Positions 9,944-31,715 of a DNA stretch of 64,000 nucleotides are shown here, piece by piece. This DNA is from Lactiplantibacillus daoliensis. Lineage in GTDB: Bacteria; Bacillota; Bacilli; Lactobacillales; Lactobacillaceae. A program made the position numbers and the translations under genes. Under the pieces are notes generated by a model. That model did not search any database. It was given only the letters and a program-made list of their open reading frames with translations, and was not told the DNA's origin. Position 1 is the stretch's first letter. Each line of letters starts with the position of its first letter. The stretch covers positions 62,001 to 126,000 of the forward strand of contig NZ_BJDH01000010.1 in assembly GCF_005405005.1 (NCBI RefSeq). The letters are read 5' to 3'.

Positions 9944-10466
9944 ACTACAGGTTGAAAGACTCAAAAATATCACAAATGTCGCAGTACCAGTAACCATTAC
10001 GTCTAAAGTAGACTCACCTAAATTTAGCGCTCCGTCAGTCAAAACCGGTGTGCTGTGGTGGACGGCGCCAGCCAAGGTACGGTTTGACACCTCAATTCAA
10101 AGCCGACAAAACACGTCTTTGAATTACCCCGCGAGATTAGTCAGCCGAGAACGCCGACTAATCTTGCCGACACTGCACACCGATTTCGACTGACTCCGCT
10201 AGCGTAATTAACTGATTTACAGAATTAGCTGGAGGTCGCTGCCGATAGCATCGGACGTGCAGGTGGTGTAAGACCGACGCTTTTTGCCGGTCTTACACCA
10301 CGGACGGTCCGGGAGATTTGCGGTTTTAGCAAAGCTTCCGGGCGAGGATCAAGACGTTCCTAAGGCTTGAGCCGGTCCCTCGTCCGCATGTTATCAGCAA
10401 CAACCGGAACCACCTAATTATTGACTTCGTGGCACAGGTACAGGATTTTTAACTTGCAACCTTTTT
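9944..10466 (+). repeat. Structured repeat element, copy A (intact, about 523 bp)
   Basis: First of four copies in the window. It begins with a decayed left end (ACAGGTTGAAAGACTCAAAAA) and ends with CTTGCAACCTTT. GCTTAA lies on both sides (9938-9943 and 10467-10472), a possible target duplication. Internal hairpins are 10093-10126, 10134-10164, 10263-10301 (14-bp perfect arms) and 10346-10373 inside 10336-10409. No reading frame is shared with the other copies. It sits between the attenuator-like leader and serC. Confidence 0.85.
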
Positions 10467-10509
10467 GCTTAAGCCTTAAAAGATTAAATTTGAAAGTGGG
10501 GATTTTTTT

Positions 10510-11613
10510 ATGTCAACGTACAACTTTTCTGCCGGTCCAGCAGTGATGCCAAAACCAGTAATTGAGCAAATTCAAGCCGAGCTACCATCGTTTCAAGGTT
10601 CCGAAATGAGTATTATGGAGATTTCCCATCGCTCTCAATTATTTGATCAAGTCATCAATGACGCCGAGGCCGATTTACGTGATTTAATGGCGATTCCCGA
10701 TAATTATCACGTGCTCTTCTTCCAAGGTGGTGGTACCTTACAGTTTACCGCGGCACCACTAAATCTAGCGACCAAACATCATCACATCGGTTTATTGGAT
10801 AGCGGTCACTGGGCCAGTCGAGCCGCTGACGAAGCACGACGGGTCAACACACAAGTCGATATTCTGGGAACTGCCGCTGCGACTCATTTTACCGCACTAC
10901 CGACACTGACGGCACCGGTCGACCAAAACTTGGATTACGTCCATATCACTACTAATAACACCATTGAAGGCACGGCCTATACAACGTTGCCTGTCACCGG
11001 CAACGTGCCATTGGTCGCCGATATGTCGTCAAACTTTTTAGGCCAAGTCTACAACGTGTCCGATTTCGGCATGATTTTTGCCGGGGCTCAAAAAAATCTC
11101 GGCCCTGCCGGTTTAACCATTGTCATCGTCCGCGATGATCTCATCGGTCAAGCGCAAAACTTACCAAGTATGCTGGATTACCAACTATTTGCCGACAAGC
11201 GCTCAATGTTCAATACGCCACCTGTGTTTGCCATCTACGCCGCCGGATTGGTTTTAAAATGGCTCAAACAACAAGGTGGGCTCAAAGTCGTTGAACAACA
11301 TAATCGTACCAAGGCCAATCTACTTTATGATTTCTTGGATCAATCTAAGTTATTCACTTGCCAAGTTAAGCCAACTGACCGCTCACTCATGAACGTGCCT
11401 TTCGTCACCGGCACCCCGGCTTTAGATGCCCAAGTCATTGCTGGAGCAACGCAACACGGTTTACTAAACTTGAAAGGCCATCGGTTGGTGGGCGGTATGC
11501 GTGCCAGTTTATATAACGCCATGCCACTCGCCGGTGTTCAAGCCCTTGTAGATTACCTTGCTGCTTTTGAAGCCAACCATGCCAAAGGAGAACTTACTCA
11601 TGTATCAAATTAA
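10510..11613 (+). CDS. serC: Phosphoserine aminotransferase
   Basis: This 367-residue PLP enzyme (class V aminotransferase) turns 3-phosphohydroxypyruvate and glutamate into phosphoserine. The N-terminal signature is YNFSAGPAVMPKPV. The phosphate and PLP contacts lie in FFQGGGTLQF and SNFLGQ, the PLP Lys is Lys195 in FAGAQKNLGPAG, and the C-terminus has GGMRASLYNAMP. SD GTGGGG lies 7-8 bases before ATG. serA starts 14 bases before its stop, so the two are translationally coupled. serB is not seen here. Upstream lies the repeat element, then the serine-rich leader and terminator. Confidence 0.95.
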   Translation: MSTYNFSAGPAVMPKPVIEQIQAELPSFQGSEMSIMEISHRSQLFDQVINDAEADLRDLMAIPDNYHVLFFQGGGTLQFTAAPLNLATKHHHIGLLDSGHWASRAADEARRVNTQVDILGTAAATHFTALPTLTAPVDQNLDYVHITTNNTIEGTAYTTLPVTGNVPLVADMSSNFLGQVYNVSDFGMIFAGAQKNLGPAGLTIVIVRDDLIGQAQNLPSMLDYQLFADKRSMFNTPPVFAIYAAGLVLKWLKQQGGLKVVEQHNRTKANLLYDFLDQSKLFTCQVKPTDRSLMNVPFVTGTPALDAQVIAGATQHGLLNLKGHRLVGGMRASLYNAMPLAGVQALVDYLAAFEANHAKGELTHVSN

Positions 11614-12769
11614 AACTTATAATGCAATTGCCCGAGCAGGCTTAGAAACCTTTACCAGCGACTATACTTTAAATCAATCAGACCAACCTGATGCCTATCT
11701 CATTCGTTCCGTCGATTTGCACCAGCAAACATTCCCCAAGTCACTCAAAGTGATTGCCCGTGCTGGCGCGGGGGTCAATAATATTCCATTAGCCGCTGCG
11801 ACTAATAACGGCACCGCCGTTTTCAACACACCTGGAAGTAACGCTAATGCCGTCAAAGAACTCGTGATTGCCTTGCTCGTGATTGCCTCACGCAACTTGA
11901 TGGCAGCTGCAGATTATTCTGCTGAACATACTGAGGCCGACGTTTCTCAACGTACAGAACATGATAAAACAAAGTTTAACGGCACGGAACTGCTCGGCAA
12001 AACTTTAGCCGTCATCGGCCTAGGTCACGTCGGTTCTTTAGTCGCTAATGCTGCTTTAAACCTTGGGATGAATGTGATTGGTTATGACCCCTATCTCTCA
12101 GCGGACGCGGCTTGGAATATTTCCAAGCAAGTTCAACGGGCCGCAACTTTACAAATGGCAGTGAGCCACGCGGATTATGTCACCGTTCACGTACCTAAGA
12201 GTGAAGACACCTTAAATCTGATCGGTGCAACTGATTTAGCAGCCATGCCGGCGGGCGTCCAACTATTTAACTACTCTCGCGGTGGTATCGTGGACAACAC
12301 TGCTGTCCTTGCCGCGATCCAAACCGGAAAAGTTGCTCATTACTACACTGACTTTGGTGAACCCCAATTGGCAAATCAAGCTGCCGTGACCGTCACTCCC
12401 CACATTGGCGGATCAACCATCGAAGCCGAAGTTAATGGTGCCACACAAGCTGCGCGAACCATTATGACTTATTTGGAAACTGGTAACGTCCAGTACGCGA
12501 TCAATTTGCCGGATTTAACGGTACCCTTCAATGCCGCTTATCGCTTTACTGTCATCCATCAAAACGTCCCAAATATGGTTAGTCAGATCACGTCGAAACT
12601 TGCAGATGCCGGCTTAAACATCGCAACCATGGCAAATGCTGCTAAGCAGCACACTGCTTACACGATTATTGATGTGGATGACCTCGACCATGAAAGCAGC
12701 CAACACTTAATTGACGCGCTAAATAAAATTCCAGCAGTCTATCGCGTCCGACTGTTAATTCATCACTAA
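11600..12769 (+). CDS. serA: D-3-phosphoglycerate dehydrogenase
   Basis: This 389-residue NAD-dependent enzyme opens serine synthesis from 3-phosphoglycerate. It has the Rossmann motif GLGHVG (140-145), catalytic Arg227 (SRGGIVD), Glu254 (DFGEPQ) and His268 (TPHIGGST). A C-terminal ACT-like domain covers about 317-389 (FTVIHQNVPNMVSQITSKL). The short form has no intervening ASB domain. I start it at ATG 11600, with AAAGGAG 8-10 bases before; the frame upstream overlaps serC and lacks homology. The ACT domain suggests feedback by serine, known for the family but not shown here. Confidence 0.94.
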   Translation: MYQIKTYNAIARAGLETFTSDYTLNQSDQPDAYLIRSVDLHQQTFPKSLKVIARAGAGVNNIPLAAATNNGTAVFNTPGSNANAVKELVIALLVIASRNLMAAADYSAEHTEADVSQRTEHDKTKFNGTELLGKTLAVIGLGHVGSLVANAALNLGMNVIGYDPYLSADAAWNISKQVQRAATLQMAVSHADYVTVHVPKSEDTLNLIGATDLAAMPAGVQLFNYSRGGIVDNTAVLAAIQTGKVAHYYTDFGEPQLANQAAVTVTPHIGGSTIEAEVNGATQAARTIMTYLETGNVQYAINLPDLTVPFNAAYRFTVIHQNVPNMVSQITSKLADAGLNIATMANAAKQHTAYTIIDVDDLDHESSQHLIDALNKIPAVYRVRLLIHH

Positions 12770-12778
12770 GGACTTCGT

Positions 12779-13213
12779 ATGCAAATCGAAACATTGAAAC
12801 AACCGACTGACTTACAACTAGACCAACTCATGGCAATTTGGCTGGCTGGAAATTTAGCTGGACATCCGTTTGTCAAAGCCGACTACTGGCGCAAGCAGGT
12901 ACCAGCCGTCCGAGCAGCCTTACCAACTACACGCTTGCTTGTTGCCACTGAGGCTGACACAATCATTGGCTTCTTAGGACTGCAAGGCAACTACATTGCC
13001 GGTATTTTTGTGGCCAACACCGCTCGAAAACACGGTGTTGGCACAGCCCTACTAAACGCTGCCAAAGCCCAGCAGCCTAAGTTGCAATTAGACGTCTATA
13101 TCGCCAATCGTTCAGCGGTCGCTTTTTATCATCACAGTGATTTTCAAGTTCACGCGCAGACCATCGATAAGGCGACTAACCAACCTGAATACAATATGCG
13201 TTGGCATCGTTAA
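12779..13213 (+). CDS. GNAT-family N-acetyltransferase
   Basis: This 144-residue acetyltransferase has the GNAT core: LMAIWLAGNLAGHPF, LLVATEADTIIGFLGLQGNYIAGIFVANTARKHGVGTALLNAAK (acetyl-CoA loop around R/KxxGxG/A) and LDVYIANRSAVAFYHHSDF. The acceptor cannot be told. It lies 9 bases after serA with SD AAGGA and ends the ser operon before a strong terminator. A link to serine or amino-acid metabolism is only from position. Confidence 0.85.
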   Translation: MQIETLKQPTDLQLDQLMAIWLAGNLAGHPFVKADYWRKQVPAVRAALPTTRLLVATEADTIIGFLGLQGNYIAGIFVANTARKHGVGTALLNAAKAQQPKLQLDVYIANRSAVAFYHHSDFQVHAQTIDKATNQPEYNMRWHR

Positions 13214-13226
13214 TCAGGCTTGCTAA

Positions 13227-13278
13227 TCAAACACGCAACCCCCTTCAGCTCAAGCTAGACGGGGGTTGCGTGTTTTTG
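13227..13278 (+). terminator. Terminator of the serC-serA-GNAT operon
   Basis: AAACACGCAACCCCC pairs with GGGGGTTGCGTGTTT over 15 bp, followed by T-rich sequence. Confidence 0.9.
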
Positions 13279-13299
13279 ATTTTCAGTTATAAAAATTTT

Positions 13300-13380
13300 G
13301 TTGTATTTCGGATTGATTTTAACCATTCTCTAATGTATTCTCAGACTCGTATCATATAAAAGGATCCGAGGGGGAATCAT
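13300..13380 (+). promoter_or_regulatory. Promoter region of peptide-binding protein gene 1
   Basis: It contains TGATTTTAA and TAATGTATTCTCA, which recur in the same order and spacing before the second paralog (about 15230-15265). SD GAGGGGG lies just before ATG 13382. The exact -35 and -10 are not certain. Confidence 0.4.
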
Positions 13381-13381
13381 T

Positions 13382-15049
13382 ATGAAGTGGAAAATGATTG
13401 GGACGGCGGCAACAGTCACCGCCTCGGTAGGATTATTACTAGCTGGTTGCGGCAGCACAAAAGCTAGTTCTGGTGGTGAAAACGCGGGTAATTTAAATGG
13501 GAATATGGCTAAAACACAAGTCTTAAATTGGTCAGAAAATGGTCAGGATATTACGACCCTAGACTCGTCACTCGCAACCGACGTCATCAGTAGTACAATG
13601 ATCAGCAACTCCGAAGAAGGGTTGTATCGTTTAGGCAATAATAGTAAGGTCACACCTGGGATTGCAACGGGCACCACCGAATCTAAGAACAAGTTAGTTT
13701 ATACTTTCACGCTACGTAAAAATGCCAAATGGAGTAACGGTGATCCAGTCACCGCCCAAGATTTCGTCTATGCTTGGCGGCGTACCGTTAATCCAAAGAC
13801 CGCTTCGCAATACGCTTATTTATATTCAGGCATCAAAAATGCCGATAAGATTTCCGCGGGTAAAGCGAACGTCAATACTTTAGGGATCAAAGCTGATGGC
13901 AAGTATAAATTAACCGTCACTTTGGAAAAACCTTTGGAATACTTCAAATTATTAATGGGCTTTGACGTCTTCTTCCCACAAGATCAAAAAGTGGTTCAAG
14001 AATACGGCAAAGACTACGGGACCAGTTCAGCCAAGATGGTTTACGATGGGCCATTTAAGATGACTGGTTGGAAAGGCACTAACTCGACTTGGGCCTTAGT
14101 CCGTAACAACAATTACTGGGATAAGAAACACGTCTACCTAGATAAAATCAATGATCAAGATGTTAAATCGACAACGACCGGCTTCAACTTATTCCAGAGT
14201 GGCAAACTTGATATGGCAACCTTATCTGGCCAACAAGTTAAAAACGAAAAGAGCAACAAGAAATTGGTCATCCGCAAATCTTCTCGGTTGAACTACTTGG
14301 AATTCAACGAAAAGAAAGTCAAAGAATTGTCTAATACCAAATTACGTCAAGCGATGTCTTTGACACTTGATCGTAAACAATTGGTCACTGATGTCTTAGG
14401 CGACGGCTCTGTTCAACCAAAAGGCTTCGTCACTAATGACTTAGCCAAGGACCCAACCACTGGCAAAGACTTCGCCGCTGAAAATGCGACCGCCAGCTCG
14501 ACTGATTACAATCCAACTAAGGCTAAACAGCTTTGGGAGGAAGGCTTGAAGGAAACTGGTAAGAAGAGTCTCACTTTAACCTTAACGCATGATGATACTG
14601 ACCAAATGAAGGCCCTCTCCGAATACGTCCAAGGTCAATTGGAAAAGGACTTACCAGGATTGAAGATTACCAGTATCGCCTTGCCTTACAAGACACGGTT
14701 AGCCCGTGAAACTGCTGGGAACTTCCAGTTAGTCATTTCCGCATGGCAAGCCGACTTCTCTGATCCCATTTCCGACCTCGGGATCATGACTTCTAACAAC
14801 AGCTACAACTTCGGCCACTGGGCAAATACTGACTACGACAATGCGATCAAAGCCGCGAACGCGACGACCAGCTCAACTGAACGTTGGTCAGAAATGTCTA
14901 AGGCTGAACGGATCATTGGTACTGACGAAGGCGTTGCACCATTATCACAAAACGTGATTGCTCAAATGCTCAATCCTAAGTTGAAGGGCTTGGTTTACAA
15001 TACCGCCGGCTTGGATTACAACTTCAAGAGTGCTTATATGGCTAAATAG
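13382..15049 (+). CDS. Peptide ABC transporter substrate-binding lipoprotein (OppA-like) 1
   Basis: This 555-residue family 5 extracellular solute-binding protein has a signal peptide with lipobox LLAGC (Cys at about 23), then a Ser/Gly/Asn linker. Family stretches are VTPGIATG, YTFTLRKNAKWSNGDPVTAQDFVYAWRR and DGPFKMTGWKG. It should capture oligopeptides at the outer face and hand them to an Opp permease that is not in this window. The second copy 290 bases downstream is nearly colinear and highly similar, so this is a tandem duplication. Both lie just before an RNPP-type regulator, a regulator class that senses imported peptides. Confidence 0.92.
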   Translation: MKWKMIGTAATVTASVGLLLAGCGSTKASSGGENAGNLNGNMAKTQVLNWSENGQDITTLDSSLATDVISSTMISNSEEGLYRLGNNSKVTPGIATGTTESKNKLVYTFTLRKNAKWSNGDPVTAQDFVYAWRRTVNPKTASQYAYLYSGIKNADKISAGKANVNTLGIKADGKYKLTVTLEKPLEYFKLLMGFDVFFPQDQKVVQEYGKDYGTSSAKMVYDGPFKMTGWKGTNSTWALVRNNNYWDKKHVYLDKINDQDVKSTTTGFNLFQSGKLDMATLSGQQVKNEKSNKKLVIRKSSRLNYLEFNEKKVKELSNTKLRQAMSLTLDRKQLVTDVLGDGSVQPKGFVTNDLAKDPTTGKDFAAENATASSTDYNPTKAKQLWEEGLKETGKKSLTLTLTHDDTDQMKALSEYVQGQLEKDLPGLKITSIALPYKTRLARETAGNFQLVISAWQADFSDPISDLGIMTSNNSYNFGHWANTDYDNAIKAANATTSSTERWSEMSKAERIIGTDEGVAPLSQNVIAQMLNPKLKGLVYNTAGLDYNFKSAYMAK

Positions 15050-15162
15050 CTTTGTAATTGCCGCATTCAATTGTCACTGATAACATCCAATCGTAGGATC
15101 AGGGGACAACGTAAGTGACAAGCACAGTTCTTCAATACCAAAAAATTAATTCATAAATTTTT

Positions 15163-15198
15163 TAACGCCCGGAAACTAGTCTTTCCGAGCGTTTTTTG
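15163..15198 (+). terminator. Terminator after peptide-binding protein 1
   Basis: AACGCCCGGAAA pairs with TTTCCGAGCGTT around a 6-base loop, followed by six T. Confidence 0.85.
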
Positions 15199-15229
15199 TT
15201 GTTTAGTTGATAAAAATGTGAATATTTAG

Positions 15230-15340
15230 CCCTGATTTTAATCTATTTTTAATGTATTCTCATTGTTATATCATAAACAACTTGCTATCGCACTTATTTT
15301 TCGTTACAACGACAGCACACATAAAAAGGGGCATACATAT
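15230..15340 (+). promoter_or_regulatory. Promoter region of peptide-binding protein gene 2
   Basis: It shares CTGATTTTAATC and TTAATGTATTCTCA with the region before the first paralog, so the duplication included the promoter. SD AAAGGGG lies before ATG 15341. Confidence 0.4.
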
Positions 15341-16996
15341 ATGAAATGGAAAACACTTTCTACTGCCGTAGTGGTCACCGCCGCGGCTGGCTTTTTGCTC
15401 ACTGGTTGCGGGAACCAATCAAAATCTTCTTCCGGCGCTAACAGCGGTAATTTAGCCAAAACACAGGTTTTAAACTGGTCTGAAAATGGCCAAGATCTTT
15501 CAACCTTGGATCCATCGCTGGCCGTTGATGTCATCAGTGGGACGATGATCAATAACTCACAGGAAGGCCTTTATCGCCTGGGCAACAACAGTAAAGTCAC
15601 CCCAGGGATTGCGACCGCCACTAAGGTTTCAAAAGACAAAAAGACCTACACCTTCACGCTACGTAAGAATGCTAAATGGAGTAATGGTGACAAAGTTACC
15701 GCTAAAGACTTCGTATACGGCTGGCGGCGTACCGTTAATCCAAAGACAGCTTCGCAATACGCCTACCTCTACTCTGGCATCAAGAACGCCGATAAAATCA
15801 CTAACGGTAAAGCTAAAGCTTCTACATTAGGGATTAAAGCAGATGGTAATTATAAGCTGACCGTTACTTTGGAAAAGCCAATCCAATATTTCAAACTATT
15901 AATGGGCTTCGTCGTCTTCTTCCCACAAAACCAACATGCAGTTGACAAATACGGTAAGGATTATGGGACTAGTTCCAGCAAGATGGTCTACAACGGCCCA
16001 TTCAAGATGACCGGCTGGCAAGGCACTAACTCAACTTGGACCTTGGTTAAAAATGATCAATATTGGGACAAGAAGAGCGTGCATTTAACCAAGATCAAAG
16101 ATCAAGTCGTCAAATCAACGACAACCGGCTTTAACCTATTCCAGAGTGGCAAACTTGATATGGCCACGTTATCTGGCCAACAAGTTAAGAATGAAAAGAA
16201 TAACAAGAAGCTCGTCATCCGTAAATCTTCACGCTTGAACTACTTGGAATTCAACCAAAAGAAAGTTAAGGAACTAAGCAATAAGAAACTTCGTCAAGCG
16301 ATGTCCTTAACCTTGAATCGGAAGCAACTAGTTAACAATGTTTTAGGCGATGGTTCAGTCACACCACAAGGCTTTGTGACGGCTGGTCTCGCTAAAGATC
16401 CAACCACTGGGAAAGACTTTGCAACTGAAAATAAAGTTGCCAGTTCAGTTGACTACAATCCAACCCAAGCGAAAAAGCTTTGGAAGGAAGGTTTAGCAGA
16501 AGTTGGTAAGAAGAAATTAACTTTGACATTAACGCATGATGACACTGACCAAATGAAAGCTCTCTCCGAATACCTCCAAGGGCAATTGGAAAAAGAGCTT
16601 CCTGGTTTGACCGTCAAGAGTGTCACGGTTCCTTATAAGACTCGGATCGCACGGGAAGTCGCCGGTAACTTTGAACTTGTCATCTCAGCATGGCAAGCCG
16701 ACTTTGCGGATCCAATCTCCGACCTTGGTATCATGACGTCTACCAACGATTACAACTTCGGTAAATGGACCAACAAGTCTTACGACGAAGCCATCAATAC
16801 CGCTAACAGTACGACTAGTACCAAAGCGCGTTGGGCAGCTTTAGCTAAGGCAGAAAAAGAAATCGGCACAGATCAAGGGGTTGCACCATTATCCCAAAAT
16901 GTCGTTGCCCAAATGGTCAATCCCAAGCTGAAAGGGCTGGTTTACAACACTGCCGGTATCAACTACAACTTTAAGGAAGCCTACATGGCCAAATAG
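15341..16996 (+). CDS. Peptide ABC transporter substrate-binding lipoprotein (OppA-like) 2
   Basis: This 551-residue paralog of the gene before it has signal peptide MKWKTLSTAVVVTAAAGFLL, lipobox LTGC, the same KWSNGDKVTAKDFVYGWRR core and the same end KGLVYNTAGINYNFKEAYM. The frame is open further upstream, but ATG 15341 carries the signal peptide and SD AAAGGGG. Differences concentrate in the middle, where ligand pockets lie (for example VVFFPQNQHAVD versus DVFFPQDQKVVQ), so the two may bind different peptides. Own promoter and terminator. Confidence 0.92.
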   Translation: MKWKTLSTAVVVTAAAGFLLTGCGNQSKSSSGANSGNLAKTQVLNWSENGQDLSTLDPSLAVDVISGTMINNSQEGLYRLGNNSKVTPGIATATKVSKDKKTYTFTLRKNAKWSNGDKVTAKDFVYGWRRTVNPKTASQYAYLYSGIKNADKITNGKAKASTLGIKADGNYKLTVTLEKPIQYFKLLMGFVVFFPQNQHAVDKYGKDYGTSSSKMVYNGPFKMTGWQGTNSTWTLVKNDQYWDKKSVHLTKIKDQVVKSTTTGFNLFQSGKLDMATLSGQQVKNEKNNKKLVIRKSSRLNYLEFNQKKVKELSNKKLRQAMSLTLNRKQLVNNVLGDGSVTPQGFVTAGLAKDPTTGKDFATENKVASSVDYNPTQAKKLWKEGLAEVGKKKLTLTLTHDDTDQMKALSEYLQGQLEKELPGLTVKSVTVPYKTRIAREVAGNFELVISAWQADFADPISDLGIMTSTNDYNFGKWTNKSYDEAINTANSTTSTKARWAALAKAEKEIGTDQGVAPLSQNVVAQMVNPKLKGLVYNTAGINYNFKEAYMAK

Positions 16997-17001
16997 TTTC
17001 A

Positions 17002-18307: not shown

Positions 18308-21300
18308 CTAAGCGCGTTTGCGCCGAGTTTCAAACCAGCCAGCTAACATGAACATTAACCAACCAATTGCCATTAACCAAACTGATTCAGATTCATCAGT
18401 TTGTGGCAAGGTTTGAGCAGTTTTGTGAGTCGTCGCTTTAGACGCCACAACTGTCTTCGCCACCGTTGGCGTGACTGGAACAGTCACTGCCGTCGGTTCA
18501 TCAACTGGCTTCACTGGAAGAACTGGTGTCGTTGGTGACGGCATCACTTGATCCGGTTGTGCCGGTTGACTTGGTGTTGTTGGTTTCGTTGGTACTTCTG
18601 GTTCAGTCGGATTCTCAGGTTCTTCCGGCGTCGTCGGGATACCGTGTCCGCTACTGTAACGGTAGCAGTCGTGTCCCCGAGCAATAAAGTAACCGGTTGA
18701 GCTTTTGTCGCCAATTGATAACCAGTTGGCGCAACTGTTTCAACTAAGGAATACGTACCCATGGCTAAATCATTAAAAATGAGTTGACCATTGGCATCCG
18801 TCGTCCCAGTTGCCACCACGTTACCCGTTGCATCCTTCAAATCGAAAGTCGCACCGGCTAACGTTGCGCCAGTCGCACTGTCTACCTTGGTAATCGTTAA
18901 TTGACCTTTAATTGCGTCATCCGCAACTGTCTGTACTTGGTCAGTATTATCCGCAGAAATCACAACTTGTAGTGACTTCGTGTTAAGTCGATAACCAGTA
19001 GGAGCAGTTACTTCTACTAAGTCGTACGTACCCAAGGCTAAATCATTAAAAATGAGTTGACCATTGGCATCCGTTACCGCCGTTTGAACGACTTGCTTAG
19101 TCGTTGCATCACGCAATTCAAACGTCGCACCAGCTAACTTAGCATTTGTCGTGCCATCAACTTTAGTCACCGTGAGGCTACCTTTAATTTCAGCATCCTT
19201 AACTGCTACTGTTAGATAGTTAGTTTGACTATCTAAGGTAACTTTAGTAGGTACAGAATTCAAAGTATAACCTGCAGGTGCGTTCGTTTCTTGGATCTGA
19301 TATGTGCCTTGTGCTAAACCGGCAAACACAGCTTGACCATTTTCGTCGGTTGTTTGTGTTTGTGTAAACCCGCTACCATCAGTAGCCGTCAACGTAAAGG
19401 TTGCACCAGCTAATAACTTATTACCACTCTCATCAGTCTTAGTGACTGTAATCGTCCGATAAGTATTCGTCAGCGTAACCATATTGCCGTCTTTAACTTG
19501 ACTGATTGCATAATCAGCCAAAGCAGCTTTCTGATCATCCACTGCAGATTCCTGCACAGTGTAAGCATAAAGCTTACCGTTAGCATCACTAGTTGGCAAA
19601 TTATCGAATGACCCTTGGTAACCATTTTCAGCTGTCAACTTCAACGTTTGGCTAGTTGAGTTATCATTCAGAAACAAGGTCACTGTGACACTAGGCTTTG
19701 TGCCTACTGGCATATTGACCCAAACCTTTTTAACCGCCAAACTAGTCGTTGGAATTGCTGTGTCGGTAACCGGTTCTGAAACACGATAGGTATTAACCCC
19801 ATCCACAGTCGTCGCAGCGTGAGGATCAATCACAATTACATGAGCCGTTTTGTCCAACAAATAGCCGTTAGGAGCGGCTGTTTCAACAAGCTGATACGTT
19901 CCGGCCGCCAAATTTGAAATCGTCAATTGACCATTCTTATCGGTTTTTAAACCAGACTGCAGTACTAAGCCATCTGTTGTTTGTAATTCATAAACAGCAT
20001 CCGGCACTGCAACCCCCGTATCTTTATCAGTTTTAGTGACAAAGAGCGTATAGGTGTGCCAATCGGCCGACGCAACGGCACCAGAAGCTAAGAATGGACT
20101 GGAACTAGCTTTATTCGTGTCATCAGGCGTATTCCCGCTGTTGCCGCTATCACCGCCACCCGGAGTCGTGGTTCCACCATCACCAGGATCAGTTGTACTA
20201 GGTAACTTGTAATTCGCAGTCGCACTATTCGTGTAGATTTGATCAGGTGCTTCAGTTGCAACTGAGTAATAGATGTTAATGGCAGTCGAGATATCACCTA
20301 ACTCAATGGTCATCTGATTACCAACCACTGATATCGATACGGCCTTAGGCGACACGCCTTTAGCAGGTGTGAAAACACCCGTTTCAAGATCGTATTTGCC
20401 AAGATTACCAGAGACACCAGGATCAGAACGTACAAAACTGCCATCAACATAAGAGCCACTTACAAAGCTGCCATTAATATAAGCGCCGCTTTCAAAAGTG
20501 ATCTCACTATTATGCTTTTGATATTGACCTAATTGATCAACAACCTCGACACTATTCCAATCCTCGCTACCTAGATTGACAACGATTTGCCATTCGATCG
20601 ACTTACCATCTGACAACCACCAACCAACTTTGTTGATTTTGGCCTTGTCATCACCAATATTGGTATCCGTCCCAGTGACATGGAACATCAAAGTTCCTTG
20701 TCGACTAGACACATTGTTTAACTCGAAATAATTATTAAAAGTCAACGTCCCGGTTTGGGTACCCGCCTTGGCTGAGAAGGTTCCAATCGACTGATTCGCA
20801 GCATTAGCTATATTGACTGCGGTGGTATTAGCAGTGAACAGAACATTCTTTGGTAAGTTTATCGTCATAGTATCACCAGCTTTGACTGGTACACCATCCT
20901 TGATTGACCACTGAATGGTCGCAATGTAGCCCGCATAAAGGCTGAGCACATCGTCGGCACTATAGACTTTACCAGTACTATCTGTCACCACAGCATCACT
21001 TACTGAAACGTCATCAGCGGCTAACTTAGCTTGGGCAGCCAAAGCTGTAAATTCACTGAGACTCAGTTTCATTAAACTGGCTTTGGGCAAGATGTGACGA
21101 TCCGACCCATTTTGACTAGTCGTCTTAGGGGTATATTGCTGCGTCACAGTCTGTTGCTTGCTCGTTTCAGCATTATCAGATTTAGCAGCAGCTTTCACGT
21201 TGACTGGATCACTTTTACTAGCCTGAGATTCAGAACTGCTGCTGGCAGAACTCTCTTGATCCGTCGTATCGGATGAAGTTGAGTTTGAGCTGGCAGTACT

Positions 21301-21582
21301 GCTACTCTGACTAGCCGAAGATGCTGTTGAGAAACTATTAGAATTAGCACTACTTTCTGAGTTAACACTGGTCGAAGTATGATTATCTAAAACAACTTCC
21401 TTGGCCGGCTTCACTGATTTCTCGCTTGAAGCTGCGGCTGCATCAACAGTTGATTCAGCAACAGTGTTAGCTGTTGAATCTGCTTTAGCGGCAGTGGCGG
21501 TGGTTGCCAACAAAGTCAGTAACGTTGCCGTCCCCGCTAAAAAGGCTTTAAAGCGTTTATTTGTCTTATTTAATTTCATCAT
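18308..21582 (-). pseudogene. Cna-type LPQTDE surface adhesin, frameshifted before the wall anchor
   Basis: The main frame (18544-21582) codes a signal peptide to about residue 34, a Ser-rich stretch (about 40-160), a collagen-binding-like A region (about 175-470, ending before a Pro/Gly/Thr linker), four SpaA-type prealbumin repeats (VTKTD…VETAAPNGY type, with Lys and Glu placed for isopeptide bonds) and one Cna-B repeat (VKKVWVN…ALADYAI). At about 18641-18646 the frame turns into Arg-rich nonsense and stops. The next frame continues GIPTTPEEPENPTEPEVPTK and leads into 18308-18547, with Pro-rich spacer, LPQTDE, membrane helix and RRKRA tail. One base seems missing. The product would be secreted, not anchored. 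An assembly error is possible. Met2 (21579) has better SD spacing. Confidence 0.85.
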
Positions 21583-21677: not shown

Positions 21678-21810
21678 ATTGGAACAGAATATTATCAATC
21701 CGATTAACTGTTGCTAGATAACTGTAATTTTAAGGGCCATAGGGCAACTAGCCCCCACTTCACTGCAACGTCCCTAGATTAGTTTCTTGGCATCACTAAT
21801 GATTAAACAT

Positions 21811-22371
21811 CTAAAGGTTGAAGGGCTCAAAAAGCGTCACAAACGTCGCAGTACCAGTAACCATTACGTCTAAAGTAGGACTCACCCAAATTTAGCGCTC
21901 CGTCAGCCAAAACCGGTGTGCTGTGGGGGACGGCACCAGCCAGAGTACGGTCTGTCGCCTCACTTCAAAGCCGGAAAACCACGTCTTTGAAGTGCCCCGC
22001 AAGATTAGTCAGCTAAAAACGCCGACTAATCTTGCCGACACTGAACACCGATTCTGACTGACTCCGCTAAGCGTAATTAACGGATTATCAAAAAATAACT
22101 ACTGACTTAGCTGGAGGTTGTTGCTGATAGCATCGGACGTGCAGGTGGCGTTTGACCGGCGTTTCTTGCCGGCCTTACACCACGGACGGTCCGGTAGATT
22201 TGTGATTTTAGCAAAGCTTCCGGGCGAGGTTCAAGACGCTTCTAAGGCTTGAACCGGTCCCTCGTCCGCATGTTATCAGTAACAACCGGAAGCGGCAGTA
22301 TTTAACTATTTCCCATAGCCTGAATATTGCTATGGTGGAACAGGACAAGAATCTTCAACTTGCAATCTTTA
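21811..22371 (+). repeat. Structured repeat element, copy B (intact, about 560 bp)
   Basis: Left end CTAAAGGTTG (21811-21820), right end TTGCAATCTTTAA. Same order of blocks as copy A. Hairpin arms 21961-21970 and 21985-21994 (CACTTCAAAG/CTTTGAAGTG) differ from copies A and C on both sides and still pair. Arms 22228-22235 and 22248-22255 read GGTTCAAG/CTTGAACC. It fills most of the 950-base gap between the adhesin and the MFS gene. Confidence 0.85.
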
Positions 22372-22440
22372 ATTAGACATTTTTAAATGGCTGCTAAACG
22401 CCGCAAAACAGCCGTTTAATTTAGGAATCTTTTCCGTTCT

Positions 22441-25972: not shown

Positions 25973-25994
25973 CGCAGGCGCTTTAGGCCTAAAT

Positions 25995-26040: not shown

Positions 26041-26047
26041 GTGTCAT

Positions 26048-26597
26048 CTAAAGGTTGCCAGTTAAAAATTGCCAGTCTGCGCCACTATGTCAATAGTCAG
26101 GTGATGAAAACTAGTCCTGCCGTTTCCAATTGTTGCTGATAACATGCGGACGAGGGACTGGGTCAAGCCTGAGAAACGTCTTGACCCTCGCCTGGAAGCT
26201 TTGCCAAAATCGCAAATCTACCAGACCGTCCGTGGTTGTAAGGCCGGCAAGAAACGCCGGTCAAACGCCACCTGCACGTCCGATGCTACCAGCAACAGCC
26301 TCCAGCTAATCAGCAGCTTTGAGAGGATAAATCAGTTATTTATGTTTAGTGGAGTCAGCCAAAATCGGTGTGCAGTATCGGCAAGAATAGTTAGCGTTCT
26401 TAGCTGACTATTCTTGCTGGGCAATTCAAAGACGTGTTTTATCGGCTTTGAATTGAGGCGTCAGACCGTACTGTGGCTGGCGCCGTCCCCCACAGCACAC
26501 CGGTTTTGACCGACGGAGCGCTGAGTTTGCGCAAGTCTACTTTAAATGTGACGGTTACTGCTACAGTTGTAATGTTTTTGAGACTTTCAACCTTTAA
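26048..26597 (-). repeat. Structured repeat element, copy C (intact, reverse orientation, 550 bp)
   Basis: Left end CTAAAGGTTG (26048-26057) and right end CAACCTTTAA (26588-26597) are inverted repeats of each other, which defines the element ends. Hairpin arms 26160-26167/26180-26187 (GGGTCAAG/CTTGACCC), 26381-26391/26407-26417 and 26422-26431/26446-26455 differ from copies A and B but still pair. It lies 31 bases past the stop of the alpha-glucosidase gene. Confidence 0.87.
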
Positions 26598-26628
26598 CTG
26601 GCATTAAAGATCCAAATGCCGACGAAAA

Positions 26629-28302
26629 CTAGAATTGGTAAACTTTAGCTTCGTATGGCCGCAATTCATCGCCAGCATCATCCGCATAGTTACTAATCAA
26701 CAATTTTGCGTCCGTCGGTAATTGGTCAAAATGCCGTGTTTGCGATTTTTCAGTAAAGTTGCAAATAACCAACAACGTTTCCGCTTTATCTTGACGCAAG
26801 TAGGCATAAACTTCCGCGTCATCGGCGGCCAATAATTGATAGTCCCCATCCGTAATAACCGGTAAGGTATGCCGTAATTCAATTAACCGTTGATAGTAGT
26901 TGAACACCGAGTCTGATTGAGCTAACGTTTGCTTGGCATTGATTTCCGGATAATTTTTATTAACCGCTAACCAAGGCGTCCCAGTTGAAAAGCCAGCATT
27001 TAAACTCGCATCCCATTGCATTGGCGTCCGGGCGTTATCCCGTGAAATATGAGCCAAATAAGCCAACATCGTGGCGGCTGGCACACGTTGTTCTTCATCA
27101 ACGAAGTGGTGATACGCATTTAACGATTCCAAATCTTGATAGTCACTGAGTTTGGTGAAGTGGGCACTGGTCATGGCCAGCTCTTCACCTTCATAAATGT
27201 ACGGCGTCCCTTGAAGAAAATGTAATAACGTCGCTAACATCTTAGCTGAGCGTTCTCGATAAGCTGGATGATCATTCCCAAACCGTGAAACGATCCGCGG
27301 CTGGTCATGGTTATCCCAATATAAACTATTCCAAGCGGTGCCATGTAACCCAGTTTGCCACTTAGTTAAACTTTGTTTCAAATCAACCAATTTTACTGGC
27401 TGATCATTCCACTTACCGAGTTCTGGCGCTGGATTACCATCTAGTCCCATGTGTTCAAATTCAAAGACCATATTTAACTCATTCGTCTTTAGTCCCGCAG
27501 ATTGCTGGGCATCGGCTACCGTGGCAGCTGGTGATTCGCCAACCGTGATCAGGTCATGACCGGCTAGAACCTTGGCGTGCATTTCTTGTAAGAATTCACT
27601 CAGCCGTGGACCATTCGCAATGATTGGGCCGATGTCGGCATAAGGTTCCCCAGGATTAGGCTGACCATCCGCAAAGCTGGCAGGTTTCGAAATTAAGTTA
27701 ATCACATCTAAGCGGAACCCATCAACGCCTTTTTCAACCCAGAAATTCATCATGTCATAGACAGCTTGACGTAATTTTGGATTTTCCCAATTTAAATCAG
27801 CTTGTTCCACCGCAAAGGAGTGCAAATAATACTGCTGACGACTTTCAACGTATTCCCAAACAGAACCACCGAAAAAGCCGCCCCAGTTGTTGGGTGCATG
27901 CCCATCGACCGGATCACGCCAAATATAGTAATCTGAATAAGGGTTGTCTTTACTCTTGGCACTTTCCTTAAACCACTTATTTTCAATCGAAGAGTGATTG
28001 ACGACAATATCCATCATTATCTTTAACCCACGCTTATGAGCACCAGCCAACAATTTATCAAAGTCGGCCATCGTCCCAAATTCTGGATTAATATCATAAT
28101 AATCACTAATATCGTAACCATTATCCACACCAGGCGAACGATAAATCGGATTCAACCAAATCACATCAGCCCCGAGTTTTTTAATATAGTCGAGTCGACT
28201 AGTGACACCAGGTAAATCCCCGATCCCATCACCATTCGAGTCCTGAAATGAACGCGGGTAAACTTGATAAACGACAGCTTTTTGCCACCATTGTGTTGTC
28301 AA
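26629..28302 (-). CDS. GH13 alpha-glucosidase (oligo-1,6-glucosidase type)
   Basis: This 557-residue cytosolic enzyme has the GH13 barrel: VYQVYPRSFQDSNGDGIGDL at the N-terminus, nucleophile Asp in DGFRLDVINLISK, acid Glu in TVGESPAA, third Asp in YWDNHDQPR, and a C-terminal beta domain ending LRPYEAKVYQF. Val directly after the nucleophile is the known mark of alpha-1,6 preference in this subfamily. Start TTG 28302 has GGAG 8 bases before. It is close to the 49.6-kb paralog. A cre-like site precedes it. A 3'-end remnant of a sister copy lies beside sacR at 31.7 kb. Confidence 0.9.
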   Translation of the reverse strand: MTTQWWQKAVVYQVYPRSFQDSNGDGIGDLPGVTSRLDYIKKLGADVIWLNPIYRSPGVDNGYDISDYYDINPEFGTMADFDKLLAGAHKRGLKIMMDIVVNHSSIENKWFKESAKSKDNPYSDYYIWRDPVDGHAPNNWGGFFGGSVWEYVESRQQYYLHSFAVEQADLNWENPKLRQAVYDMMNFWVEKGVDGFRLDVINLISKPASFADGQPNPGEPYADIGPIIANGPRLSEFLQEMHAKVLAGHDLITVGESPAATVADAQQSAGLKTNELNMVFEFEHMGLDGNPAPELGKWNDQPVKLVDLKQSLTKWQTGLHGTAWNSLYWDNHDQPRIVSRFGNDHPAYRERSAKMLATLLHFLQGTPYIYEGEELAMTSAHFTKLSDYQDLESLNAYHHFVDEEQRVPAATMLAYLAHISRDNARTPMQWDASLNAGFSTGTPWLAVNKNYPEINAKQTLAQSDSVFNYYQRLIELRHTLPVITDGDYQLLAADDAEVYAYLRQDKAETLLVICNFTEKSQTRHFDQLPTDAKLLISNYADDAGDELRPYEAKVYQF

Positions 28303-28328
28303 AAGAATCACTCCTCTAAGTTTATTTA

Positions 28329-28342
28329 TGTTAGCGTTTCCA
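28329..28342 (-). promoter_or_regulatory. cre-like box before the alpha-glucosidase gene
   Basis: TGGAAACGCTAACA on the minus strand fits the CcpA box TGNAANCGNNWNCA. It may also be read by the LacI-type regulators nearby. Confidence 0.6.
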
Positions 28343-28471
28343 ACAGTTCTATTTTAACATTGAACTCCGGCGATTAACGGCGAAACGATTTCTAATTCTG
28401 GAATACGTTTCAAAATTGTGAATCCATTTGAAATACCGTTACATGGCCGCTCTGATTTGACTAGACTGCCA

Positions 28472-28603
28472 CTGGAACGTGGTCACCGCCGATCATCGTC
28501 AAGTTGAAACAACCTTAAACTCGATTAGATGGTTAAACATTTTATCTCTCAAGTCGGCATTCGAGACCGCACTTTGGCTCGAAAACGGCCCACCACGTTC
28601 CAG
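28472..28603. repeat. Intergenic inverted-repeat element
   Basis: CTGGAACGTGG (28472-28482) pairs with CCACGTTCCAG (28593-28603), enclosing a smaller TTCGAG/CTCGAA repeat (28560-28565, 28578-28583). It is unrelated to the four-copy repeat family and fills much of the gap between the glucosidase and the T-box. Confidence 0.45.
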
Positions 28604-28660
28604 CCCTAAGTAACACTAACCTGTAGCGGCAATTTACAGTAATCTAGCTTGTTCCAATCC

Positions 28661-28689
28661 TTGACGCCCTCAAAAGTTCATGCTATTAT
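28661..28689 (+). promoter_or_regulatory. Promoter of the T-box transcript
   Basis: -35 TTGACG (28661-28666), 17-bp spacer, -10 TATTAT (28684-28689). Confidence 0.75.
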
Positions 28690-28693
28690 CGCA

Positions 28694-28952
28694 GTTAACT
28701 TCATAAGGAACATTTAGGCTACTTTCAAGTAGGATGAACACTGTGCGTCAGGAAGTCGGTGGTTGCTGCGAATCGATCAGGTGTGACATCATGAAATACA
28801 GTTAGCCGTTGTCCGGGTGTGCCCGGCGGATTGTAATTAGCACCGTTATCAGCTAGTGAGTGGAAAAGAACTTGTCTTTTCAAGCTGGGTGGTACCACGG
28901 TCTAATCAATCGTCCCTGTTGCAATTTGTTGCAGCGAGGACGATTTTTTTGT
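28694..28952 (+). ncRNA. T-box riboswitch, tyrosine type
   Basis: The T-box core TGGGTGGTACCACG lies at 28886-28899, followed by a terminator (AATCGTCC…GGACGATT plus T-run, 28907-28950). Near the base of stem I, TAACT pairs with AGTTA and TCAT with ATGA, leaving TAC (28797-28799) in the specifier position: a tyrosine codon. The base after TGG is T, which fits a tRNA with discriminator A, as tRNA-Tyr has. Uncharged tRNA-Tyr should favour the antiterminator and switch on the downstream transporter. Confidence 0.9.
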
Positions 28953-28981
28953 TGAAAAATTTTAGAGGAGTGACTTAATTT

Positions 28982-30379
28982 ATGAAAAAAGCAGCGACTT
29001 GGCGGCCGGTACATCTGCCGGAAGCCTTAGCAGTACTACTGATTATGTTGGCCATCATGGGCTTAGGTGTCATCAAATTCGGCCTTTCGCCACAAACGCC
29101 TGTTATCTTGGTCATCGCATTGGTTATCTTATGGGCTCGAGTACGCGGGGCCGCCTGGGATGATATCCACGGCGGCATCATCGACGGAATTAAAACTGGC
29201 ATTATCCCCATCTTCATCTTCTTACTAATCGGGGCGTTAATCAGCGTTTGGATCGCGGCTGGCATCATTCCATCCATGATGGTCTTCGGTTTCCACCTGA
29301 TTTCGGCCCAATGGTTTGTCCCATCCGTCTTCTTAGTTTGTGCGATTATCGGGACTTCAATCGGGAGTGCCTTTACGATTATTTCGACCATCGGCATCGC
29401 GTTATTTGGTATTGGGACTACCATGGGGATTAATCCAGCGTTGATTGCTGGGGCAATTATCTCCGGTGCCATTTTTGGGGATAAAACGTCCCCTCTTTCT
29501 GACTCTACTAATTTGGCAGCCGCTATCGCCGAAAGTGACCTATTTGATCACATCCGAAATCTCATGTGGTCCACGATTCCCGCCTTCGTTGTTTCACTAA
29601 TCTTGTACACCGTGTTAGGCGCAGGCGCAGCGACTGAAACTCATCTTGGGAAAATTAATACAACCTTAGCCGTTCTCAATCAAAACTTCACCATCAGCTG
29701 GTGGGCAGCATTACCTTTAATCGTGATGCTCGTATGTGCCATTCGAAAAGTCCCAGCAATTGCGACACTTCTAATAAACATTGCTTTAGCCATCGTCATG
29801 ATTTTTAGCCAGAATCCGCGAACGCCCTTGGTCAAAATCGCGACGATGATTGAAACTGGTTTCGTTTCAAAAACGGGCAACGCCGGGGTGGATCAACTCC
29901 TATCACGTGGTGGAATCAGTGCAATGATGGGTACTGTTTCATTAATTTTATTAACCTTATCTTTGGGTGGTCTGCTTATGCGTTTCAACTTGATTCAAAC
30001 CGCCATGGTGCCGCTCGCCAAGCGTCTGCGAAGCGCCGGAATGACTGTTACCGCAACGATTTTAGCCGGGATTGGCGTCAACGTATTCGTTGGTGAACAA
30101 TACTTATCTGTCATTCTTCCCGGTAAAGCTTTCAAGAAGACCTTTAATGAACAAGGACTGGCTAATTTAGCACTAAGCCGGGTCCTAGAAGATGGCGGGA
30201 CCGTCATCAACTACTTGATTCCTTGGGGTGTTGCTGGGGCATTTGCGGCAAACACGCTGGGCGTTTCAACCTTGGCTTACCTGCCATTCTGTTTCTTCAG
30301 CTTGTTATCGCCAGTCTTTTCCATTATTAGTGGCTTTACCGGTTGGGGACTCAAGCGTCAAAAGAGTGTTAACCCTTAA
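28982..30379 (+). CDS. NhaC-family antiporter, probable tyrosine transporter
   Basis: This 465-residue membrane protein has about 11-12 helices and NhaC-family features: GIIDGIKTGIIPIFIFLLIGALI, GTSIGSAFTIISTIG, IFGDKTSPLSDSTNLAAAI (the ion site region) and VGEQYLSVILPGKAFKK. NhaC proteins exchange Na+ and H+, but comparative work on T-box genes assigned some members (YheL type) to tyrosine uptake; the tyrosine-type T-box directly before this gene agrees. SD AGAGGAG lies before ATG. A role with a decarboxylase as exchanger is possible, but no tyrosine decarboxylase is near. Confidence 0.85.
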   Translation: MKKAATWRPVHLPEALAVLLIMLAIMGLGVIKFGLSPQTPVILVIALVILWARVRGAAWDDIHGGIIDGIKTGIIPIFIFLLIGALISVWIAAGIIPSMMVFGFHLISAQWFVPSVFLVCAIIGTSIGSAFTIISTIGIALFGIGTTMGINPALIAGAIISGAIFGDKTSPLSDSTNLAAAIAESDLFDHIRNLMWSTIPAFVVSLILYTVLGAGAATETHLGKINTTLAVLNQNFTISWWAALPLIVMLVCAIRKVPAIATLLINIALAIVMIFSQNPRTPLVKIATMIETGFVSKTGNAGVDQLLSRGGISAMMGTVSLILLTLSLGGLLMRFNLIQTAMVPLAKRLRSAGMTVTATILAGIGVNVFVGEQYLSVILPGKAFKKTFNEQGLANLALSRVLEDGGTVINYLIPWGVAGAFAANTLGVSTLAYLPFCFFSLLSPVFSIISGFTGWGLKRQKSVNP

Positions 30380-30461
30380 AAGCAAGCAAAAGCCCCCACT
30401 AAGTTAGTCAGCAAACACAAGCTCGAATCCGATGGTCGCGGCTTGTGTAGATACCCATGCT

Positions 30462-30503
30462 CCCCCTACAATTAGATAAAAGGACTTTTTATCAAGGAGG
30501 GGG
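30462..30503 (+). promoter_or_regulatory. Promoter/leader hairpin before the oxidoreductase gene
   Basis: A possible -10 TACAAT (30467-30472) with TTGTGT 19 bases upstream. GATAAAA/TTTTATC makes a hairpin ending at the SD AAGGAGGGGG. CCCCC (30462-30466) could pair with the SD, but only if transcription starts upstream of it. Confidence 0.35.
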
Positions 30504-30509
30504 CATACG

Positions 30510-31424
30510 ATGCTTGCATATGGTTATCGAAAATTTGGGGGACCCGCTGTCTTTGAAACACTTGATCAGCCGGCGTTAAAACCAGCAGCCAATCAAGTTA
30601 TTATTACAACACTAGCACTCAATTTAAATGATGAGGATCGCATTGAACGCTTAGGCGCCAATGCGACTACCCCATTACCAATGATTCCTGGTCACGATGT
30701 CGTTGGCCGCGTAACTCAAGTTGGCGCGGCGGTGACTGATCTGTCGATTGGTACTTTAGTGGCCGCACACACAGATCATGCTTACGCGGAACAAGTTTGT
30801 TTGGACGCTGACAGTACCGTCACCGTGCCTGACAATTTAACACCTGCCCAGGCTGTCAGCCTGATTACACCCGGAATTACAGCCTATAAAACGGTCCGTT
30901 ATTTTGCAGATGTGCAACCAGATCAGACGGTGATTGTTAAAGGTGCCGCCGGTGGGGTAGGTTCACTAGTCGTCCAGTTAGCCAAACGGCTCGGTGCCAA
31001 AGTGATTGCCGTCGCCAGTCAACGACACGCCGACACTTTAACCGCATTAGGCGTTGACCAGTTTGTGGCCTATGATCGACAAGATCCCGCCCATGTTCTA
31101 GCTGATTGTGGCGATGTCGTCATCAACGTAGCGTTGAATGGCGTCGATGGCAAAGCGGACTTGGCCATGGCCAAGTTTGACGCAACCATTGCGTCCATCG
31201 CGACCCGCTTACCAGCGACTAGTAAGTCCATTCGTTTCCGATCCATTCACGCAACTGACGCAATTTCTGACCAAGCCGCGTTGCAAATGCTCTTTAAACT
31301 ATTAAGTACTGGTCAACTGCAGACCAATATCGGTTACCAATTACCGTTCAATCTGGCTGGCTTCATCCAAGGTCATGAACTATTGGATCAGCCACATAAC
31401 GGTCGGATCGTGATTGAAAAATAA
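30510..31424 (+). CDS. Zinc-free medium-chain dehydrogenase (quinone oxidoreductase-like)
   Basis: This 304-residue MDR-superfamily protein has an N-terminal GroES-like domain with PMIPGHDVVGRVTQVGA and a Rossmann domain with GAAGGVGSLVVQLAKRLGAKVIAVAS. The cysteines that bind structural zinc are missing, as in quinone reductase and crotonyl-CoA reductase branches. It likely reduces quinones or enones with NADPH. Strong SD AAGGAGG. Alone between two terminator-like structures. Confidence 0.87.
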   Translation: MLAYGYRKFGGPAVFETLDQPALKPAANQVIITTLALNLNDEDRIERLGANATTPLPMIPGHDVVGRVTQVGAAVTDLSIGTLVAAHTDHAYAEQVCLDADSTVTVPDNLTPAQAVSLITPGITAYKTVRYFADVQPDQTVIVKGAAGGVGSLVVQLAKRLGAKVIAVASQRHADTLTALGVDQFVAYDRQDPAHVLADCGDVVINVALNGVDGKADLAMAKFDATIASIATRLPATSKSIRFRSIHATDAISDQAALQMLFKLLSTGQLQTNIGYQLPFNLAGFIQGHELLDQPHNGRIVIEK

Positions 31425-31475
31425 AAAAATCGCACCTAGCCAGTCTTTTCAGACCATGCTAGGTGCGATTTTTAT
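31424..31475 (+). terminator. Terminator after the oxidoreductase
   Basis: AAAAATCGCACCTAGC pairs perfectly with GCTAGGTGCGATTTTT, with an inner hairpin in the loop. Confidence 0.9.
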
Positions 31476-31481
31476 TTCATT

Positions 31482-31715
31482 CTAAGGGTTGAAAGACTCA
31501 AAAACATCACAAATGTCGCAGTACCAGTGACCCTTATGTCTAAAGTAGACTTGTCTAAATTCAGCGCTCCGTCAGTCAAAATCGGTGTGTGTGGGGGGCA
31601 AGGTTCAAGACGTTTCTGAGGCTTGAACCGGTCCCCTCGTCCGCATACTATCGGCAACAACCGGAAGCGGCAGTAATCAACTAGTTTCCACTGCCTGATT
31701 ATTGACATAAGGGCG
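31482..31715 (+). repeat. Structured repeat element, copy D (internally deleted)
   Basis: Left end CTAAGGGTTG then the same first 120 bases as copies A and B. After GTCAAAATCGGTGTGTG it jumps to GGTTCAAGACG near the end, losing about 320 bases. The right inverted end is missing; the element runs straight into an alpha-glucosidase gene remnant at about 31711. Confidence 0.8.

Follow-up and report, generated by a model that had tools for sequence, protein, structure and literature searches.

Intergenic repeats of Lactiplantibacillus daoliensis with the ends of an IS4-group insertion sequence and an outward-pointing pair of covarying domains

A stretch of 64,000 nucleotides from the genome of Lactiplantibacillus daoliensis (contig NZ_BJDH01000010.1, positions 62,001 to 126,000; hereafter the window, meaning the whole stretch that was analysed) contains four related repeats, designated copies A to D, and a sequence-only reading of this DNA had noted that their internal hairpins vary in both arms together. 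This raises the question of whether such repeats are non-autonomous transposons, a mobile structured RNA or both, and whether the paired changes reflect selection on a folded molecule. The repeats are found to be non-autonomous transposons of the IS4 group by mobility, similar to miniature inverted-repeat transposable elements (MITEs), and their full-length copies carry two reverse-complement homologues of one structured domain, named D, which by the rates and kinds of change appears to be kept base-paired by selection after insertion and which probably acts as folded RNA.

Mobility and the partner insertion sequence

The family is not limited to the four repeats of the window, as BLAST over own-genome loci and fetched stretches yielded at least 94 distinct copies of 150 bp or more, together 41,550 bp, in a genome of 2,632,925 bases in 19 contigs. 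These copies do not overlap in genome coordinates, one pair lying 288 bp apart could be a single decayed element, and the copy number is hence given as at least 93-94. When up to three mismatches are allowed, a 20-base motif from the 3' half is found 85 times in this genome and its reversed control not once; for a 21-base motif from the 5' half the count is 107, which includes occurrences of the pairing arm of the same stem. Complete elements are about 540 bases long and mostly intergenic, with both domains full in 52 of the 94 copies, the right domain alone missing in 11, the left alone in another 11 and only partial domains in 20. The 31 copies of 500-600 bp used for alignment, drawn from the 63 of 94 copies with both ends recognised at no more than four mismatches, have a mean pairwise identity of 83% (range 76.5-88.6). 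Several internal deletions end near the hairpin bases of the domains, as expected of hairpin deletion during replication.

The elements are bounded by terminal inverted repeats (TIRs), [C]TAAAGGTTGAAAG...CTTTCAACCTTTA[G], and both ends could be recognised in 52 of the 94 own-genome copies and in 17 of the 19 copies of a same-genus genome, G020, whose copies have sharp ends and lie 1.3-2.3% from their consensus in the domains. Exact 8-bp duplications flank 10 of these 52 own copies (0.14 under shuffled pairing) and 5 of the 17 G020 copies (0.32), increasing to 15 of 52 (0.40) and 8 of 17 (0.60) when one mismatch is allowed, and in a 7-bp frame exact duplications flank 7 of 52 (0.11) and 4 of 17 (0.18). 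A target-site duplication (TSD) of 7-8 bp is thus retained by a minority, the exact duplication being no longer present in most old copies, and the flanks outside it have T-rich positions before the element and A-rich positions after it.

A search with these ends in G020 revealed a pair 1,567 bp apart (C1 64426-65992) with ATAGGAG on both flanks. Between them lies one open reading frame (ORF) of 457 aa, which matches the NCBIfam model IS4_4 (NF049925) with 460.3 bits at a cut-off of 250 and the Pfam families DDE_5 and DDE_Tnp_1 above cut-off, so that an autonomous relative with the same ends exists in the form of an IS4-family insertion sequence (IS). Transposase homologues were matched in 5 of 14 genomes searched, the match in G004 covering just 22 residues, and in G008, G010 and G017, which are other species, relatives with the same TIR at similar spacing are present (L212 1353-2915, L213 938-2395 and L214 1345-2851). 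Their transposases, split in L213 and L214, are 45-62% identical to that of G020 over most pieces, and no clear target duplications accompany them. The repeats accordingly have TIRs, TSDs, no transposase gene inside and an IS with the same ends in same-genus genomes, and because this IS belongs to the IS4 family they are non-autonomous (MITE-like) transposons of the IS4 group by mobility, which is what the earlier reading had suggested as one of its two possibilities. It is very likely that an IS4-type transposase acts on them in trans, and it would do so by cut and paste and often into terminator-adjacent sites.

Other assignments were considered and rejected. Repetitive extragenic palindromes (REPs) are short palindromes linked to a REP-associated tyrosine (Y1) transposase (RAYT), and a REP/RAYT system is ruled out by elements of about 540 bp with TIRs and 7-8 bp TSDs, whose same-ended IS encodes a DDE enzyme and not a Y1 enzyme. 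An origin from phages or plasmids was dropped, since copy B had no match in the phage or the plasmid collection and one exact degenerate pattern was absent from viral contigs. In the surroundings of 17 loci with one domain, an autonomous element carrying domain D was not found.

The sites of insertion show an excess of intrinsic terminators: terminator-like hairpins pointing into the element within 90 nt were counted at the right side in 15 of 68 copies and at the left side in 13 of 68 (shuffles 0.3 and 1.0), and those pointing outward from the element in 9 and 6 of 68 (shuffles 1.0 each). By the orientation of the neighbouring ORFs, 92 copies could be classified (94 minus two at edges): 37 have convergent neighbours, 9 divergent and 46 co-directional, the element having the same sense as the genes at 21 of the co-directional sites and the opposite sense at 25; as a small background from the 64-kb window, 6 of 26 gaps longer than 60 bp are convergent. 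The history of one site can be followed downstream of treC, where copy C resides. The TreC protein encoded in the window shares 93% identity with its counterpart in Lactiplantibacillus pingfangensis and 71-84% with those of the other listed Lactiplantibacillus. In L. pingfangensis the site lacks an element, and no domain was found in a 13.7-kb stretch. L. xiangfangensis and a metagenome-assembled genome carry D elements in the same gap (L276 11708-12105 and L277 11733-12130), apparently as independent insertions, because their orientations are mutually opposite.

Domain D and its two outward-pointing copies

Folding of the 31 aligned copies by RNAalifold gave two large domains, one in each half of the element. 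Domain D comprises about 180 nt and is built of a closing stem of about 23-25 bp, a hairpin, a short inner stem and two further hairpins with conserved loops. Covariance models were named R1 for the right domain and R2 for the left, and the domain structures were derived anew from the hits that are distinct and cover at least 85% of the model, numbering 134 out of 185 and 146 out of 213. A pseudoknot between loops was judged by eye and dropped.

A hidden Markov model of the right domain finds the left-domain consensuses solely in opposite orientation, its best E value being 2e-5 against a tiny database. In the same manner, R1 matches left domains over their full length on the opposite strand with 49-84 bits (E about 1e-12 to 1e-22) as compared to 24-34 bits on the wrong strand of right domains, and R2 matches right domains with 57-93 bits, its wrong-strand matches scoring 29-44. 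The order minus-then-plus, hence outward, holds in 13 of 13 close domain pairs and also in the close pairs of other genera, and at one further locus, L251, two domains with a spacing of about 900 nt face the same way. The halves of G006 are difficult to distinguish, so that one row of each training alignment (L067 and L081) is of uncertain side. These model comparisons show the left and right halves as reverse-complement homologues of one domain, pointing outward; the folded internal hairpins described in the sequence-only reading are present, but that reading had missed the inverted homology of the two halves.

The fold is accompanied by extensive covariation. In sets of 41 right (of 51) and 42 left (of 47) domain sequences, whose parent lists are themselves subsets, 97.5% of right and 95.3% of left cells are paired, and 33 of 54 right and 48 of 60 left pairs change on both sides. 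None of 500 shuffles reaches the observed covariation, and slid structures are 29-45% paired versus 95-98%. Within the own genome, 70 copies of the left domain contain 101 double changes where independent columns predict 36, 95 of the 101 being canonical, and 69 copies of the right domain contain 67 where 26 are predicted, 59 of the 67 being canonical; the paired arm changes quoted in the earlier reading are therefore real and beyond chance. An excess of double changes is seen as well in G004, G010 and G016 for both domains and in G013 for the right domain (left sequences being too few), while the young G020 copies have none, with 0.2 and 0.4 expected. The long-range closing stems of D covary too, and loop residues are conserved. 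Covariation alone gives no distinction between RNA and single-stranded DNA (ssDNA).

Across the family, R1 matches were obtained in 69 of 350 Lactobacillaceae genomes (the own genome included), belonging to 10 of 40 genera, when no more than seven candidates were scored per genome. An order-wide sample gave matches in 9 of 295 genomes, of which two outside the family, at 23-25 bits, were treated as noise. Copies of G367 are 68-85% identical over the aligned parts, mainly the domains, and in three genomes of another genus (g21) a single D stands beside an orthologous gene (proteins 91-94% identical) in poorly alignable flanks. Around 17 one-domain loci no recurring ORF family was found save at orthologous or identical loci and for an antisense frame, the neighbours being unannotated, and a search for shared end motifs in three other genera gave nothing convincing. 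On the antisense strand of D at L251, L266, L269, L272 and L237 a short open frame recurs with similar residues, which is probably a by-product of the conserved structure, and a protein-coding reading of D was rejected with this frame taken as the structure's shadow. Near a D element of another genus, a sub-threshold match to the T-box leader was noted (L238 847-1034, minus strand, 43.6 bits against a gathering score of 93).

Constraint after insertion and the choice between RNA and DNA

The tree of the 31 copies is star-like, with a terminal length of 3.11 and an internal length of 0.34. On its terminal branches, changes per site amount to 0.043 at paired D positions, 0.077 at unpaired D positions, 0.106 in the leader, 0.099 in the tail, 0.085 in the centre and 0.096 in the TIRs, as calculated on columns with at most three gaps (23 of 65 columns in the tail), so that paired D sites change 2.4 times slower than leader and tail. 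Compared to the consensus, paired D has diverged less than leader plus tail in 30 of the 31 copies. Double changes on the same branch number 31 (null mean 13.2, maximum 26) and canonical ones 28 (null mean 9.5, maximum 17), as compared to 2-6 canonical same-branch doubles for slid pairings. In copies reduced to one domain, the remaining domain is as well folded as the rest (groups of 5 and 6, with 14 and 30 unassigned). Because paired sites are slower and same-branch compensatory changes are in excess, inserted copies seem to stay under selection for folding, and this supports one part of the earlier proposal of selection on folded RNA or ssDNA; between RNA and ssDNA there is a leaning towards RNA, due to the wobble pairs.

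This leaning arises as follows. Single changes that create G-U on the outward strand exceed those that create A-C, with 332 versus 228 on terminal and 93 versus 64 on internal branches, and the strand on which wobble is favoured switches between the two halves. When the left-domain structure is derived on the other strand, the bias still points outward (368 A-C and 211 G-U cells on that strand). Strand-specific wobble hence leans to RNA over ssDNA, with composition and mutation bias explaining part of it.

The best overall explanation, which is favoured on balance, is an IS4-group non-autonomous transposon with an outward pair of D whose RNA acts in cis. Its parts are of unequal strength. That D acts as folded RNA is judged probable, whereas action in cis is put forward tentatively, because an RNA acting in trans would hardly account for selection on each of about 94 redundant copies. 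The steps held with least certainty are that D would be made as RNA outward from the element and that this RNA would act on the locus of its own copy. With two opposed copies of D the effect would be independent of the orientation of insertion, and outward transcripts could be stopped by the terminators present at insertion sites. Equally tentative is the wider proposal that D represents a new large structured RNA class of nested three-way junctions, present in at least 10 genera and cis-acting at a large share of the roughly 94 sites.

Several observations weigh against this explanation. As to mobility, the search of 14 genomes found no transposase homologue in the own genome, a second homologue in G020 (L216) was not seen to have these TIRs, and TIR or TSD ends were not found within the flanks searched at 21 loci from other genera and 4 loci from distant congeners, 25 together, in a search that recovered the ends of 5 of 5 known copies. 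As to transcription, in and around copy B, the sole copy scanned, a single promoter match stands against 0.8 expected, which is not convincing, and no terminator was found against 1.0 expected. As to the strand, C>U exceeds G>A at unpaired positions of both domains, so that mutation may contribute to the wobble bias, the bias is reversed in the young G020 copies (8 versus 17), and the gain in stability of the outward strand (-10.3 and -12.2 kcal/mol) compares with -8.2 and -9.9 for shuffled versions of the 34 and 37 sequences sampled, due to which the asymmetry in folding energy was discarded as strand evidence, being mostly composition. As to pairing, terminal single-sided changes from a canonical pair break it in 151 cases and keep it in 131, therefore the constraint on pairing is partial, and double changes in the right domain are clustered (20 of 59, with 4.2 permuted), as template switching in hairpins would also produce.

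Among other explanations, D could be a trans-acting structured RNA gene, for instance protein-binding or oligomerising, with its own promoter and hitch-hiking in multi-copy transposons. The large copy number would suit such a gene, as would the persistence of single D copies, both in own-genome elements lacking one domain (the right in 11, the left in 11) and beside one orthologous gene in each of the three genomes of g21, with the closest called ORF to either side on the other strand; it is nevertheless unlikely, since constraint on inserted copies is unexpected with about 94 redundant copies and since copy B yielded neither a promoter nor a terminator. Also unlikely, and ranked slightly lower, is that D folds as ssDNA or as a cruciform with a role in transposition, replication or the retention of copies, RNA being irrelevant. 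Double changes in long and short stems alike, internal deletions ending near hairpin bases and carriage in TIR-bearing mobile DNA agree with such a role, but a cruciform is strand-symmetric whereas the tolerance of wobble is not and swaps strand between the halves, and the constraint persists after insertion. Finally, the repeats could be decayed MITEs of the ordinary sort, with hairpins kept tidy by quasipalindrome correction through template switching and no selection on function. This would account for the clustered right-domain doubles and for the preponderance of pair-breaking single changes, but is quite improbable, as unpaired D is also slower than the leader, loop residues are conserved, the wobble bias is strand-specific, closing stems covary at long range and doubles in the left domain are unclustered (14 of 95, with 16.9 permuted).

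The window copies, related repeats and biological meaning

The four copies, located where the sequence-only reading had placed them and sharing order and sequence, are listed in Table 1 with the ends of A and B refined. Copy C adjoins a hairpin that resembles a terminator and has both an A-tract and a T-tract, and its target duplication has decayed (ATGCCAG / ATGACAC). In copy D the sole part that scores with R1 is a stretch of the third hairpin (31598-31629). The statement that the copies share no reading frame broadly holds, with the reservation that copy A overlaps an ORF, 9831-10193, the only one of at least 90 aa to overlap a window copy, and that 10 of 92 genomic copies are overlapped by more than 60 bp by an ORF of at least 80 aa. 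The ORF at copy A starts outside the element, and the overlap is taken as chance.

Table 1. Elements and D domains in the window, with covariance model scores
Feature	Position	Strand	Remarks
Element copy A	9945-10466	+	full length; TSD-like GCTTAAA 9938-9944 / GCTTAAG 10467-10473
Copy A left domain D	10028-10201	- (outward)	R1 56.4 bits; R2 177.5 bits over 10028-10198
Copy A right domain D	10226-10411	+ (outward)	R1 200.4 bits
Element copy B	21811-22372	+	full length; TSD TTAAACAT 21803-21810 / TTAGACAT 22373-22380
Copy B left domain D	21896-22070	-	R1 72.1 bits; R2 181.3 bits over 21896-22066
Copy B right domain D	22108-22293	+	R1 215.2 bits
Element copy C	26048-26597	-	full length; downstream of treC
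Copy C right domain D (element orientation)	26122-26308	-	R1 194.7 bits
Copy C left domain D (element orientation)	26346-26520	+	R1 49.1 bits; R2 177.7 bits over 26350-26520
Element copy D	31482 to ~31715	+	decayed; 3' inverted repeat and most of both domains gone

Elsewhere in the window, a surface protein of 1012 aa with SpaA/Cna_B-type domains (18544-21582, minus strand) contains internal 85-nt repeats at 18717, 18990 and 19860, two adjacent ORFs at 13382-16996 have 300 nt at 79% identity in common and are probably tandem paralogues, and a part of treC (27663-28178) is 72-74% identical to 50666-51181 in a second ORF about 23 kb away, likely a paralogue.

With respect to known RNAs, none of the 4227 Rfam families matches the window at gathering score, and relaxed Rfam searches of copy B and six other loci gave sub-threshold matches only, lying outside D or overlapping its edge, so that a known RNA family was rejected as the identity of D. 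The large ornate bacterial RNAs GOLLD, ROOL and OLE are present in Rfam. D as a putative RNA resembles them in being large and ornate, one of the three being named for Lactobacillales and one for the rumen, as given in the parts of the source covered (PMC12286853), and differs in being an inverted pair in an IS4-type transposon and in lacking a Rfam family at gathering score in the window.

No description of this repeat was recognised in searches of the open-access literature. An earlier systematic survey of stem-loops included L. johnsonii, and the word plantarum is absent from that paper (PMC2267715). Nearest in kind, judged from the covered parts of the respective papers, are the pneumococcal BOX, RUP and SPRITE repeats and the bcr repeats of Bacillus cereus. 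The former are likewise multi-copy structured intergenic repeats, enriched between convergent genes and regarded as mobile parasites, but small interspersed repeats are described there as typically shorter than 200 bp, and the host family is a different one; the terms 'compensatory' and 'covari' are absent from the main text, and no inverted domain pair occurs in the passages covered (PMC3049150). The repeats bcr1-bcr18 are mobile, 100-400 bp long and group-specific, bcr1 having a mean of 39 copies per strain, but their mobility is tied, in the sections covered, to a TTTAT motif, unlike the IS4-type TIRs and 8-bp duplications seen here (PMC6542083). Bacterial MITEs as portrayed in the covered part of another source share the TIRs, target direct repeats, intergenic sites, IS origin and transcripts predicted to fold, and the present elements differ by their length of about 540 bp, and by the inverted pair of a conserved covarying domain whose change after insertion is slow and which occurs in ten genera (PMC10969869).

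The mobility side is thus known in kind, that of a MITE, and what appears to be new is the structured payload, without Rfam match or recognised description in the searches made. MITEs are commonly regarded as inert or as accidental regulators. Here, selection for base pairing seems to continue in inserted copies, and the folded domain has persisted beyond the divergence of genera. D also offers a candidate RNA family for which Rfam 15 gave no match. A single genome offers more than 90 natural replicates, a congener has recent copies that are nearly identical, and the hosts belong to genera of fermented foods, so that the role of folded repeat RNAs after insertion becomes directly testable. If the wider proposal is true, a seemingly selfish repeat would constitute a genome-wide RNA regulatory layer at the 3' ends of genes, in the form of a two-headed, orientation-independent cassette mobilised by IS4-type transposase.

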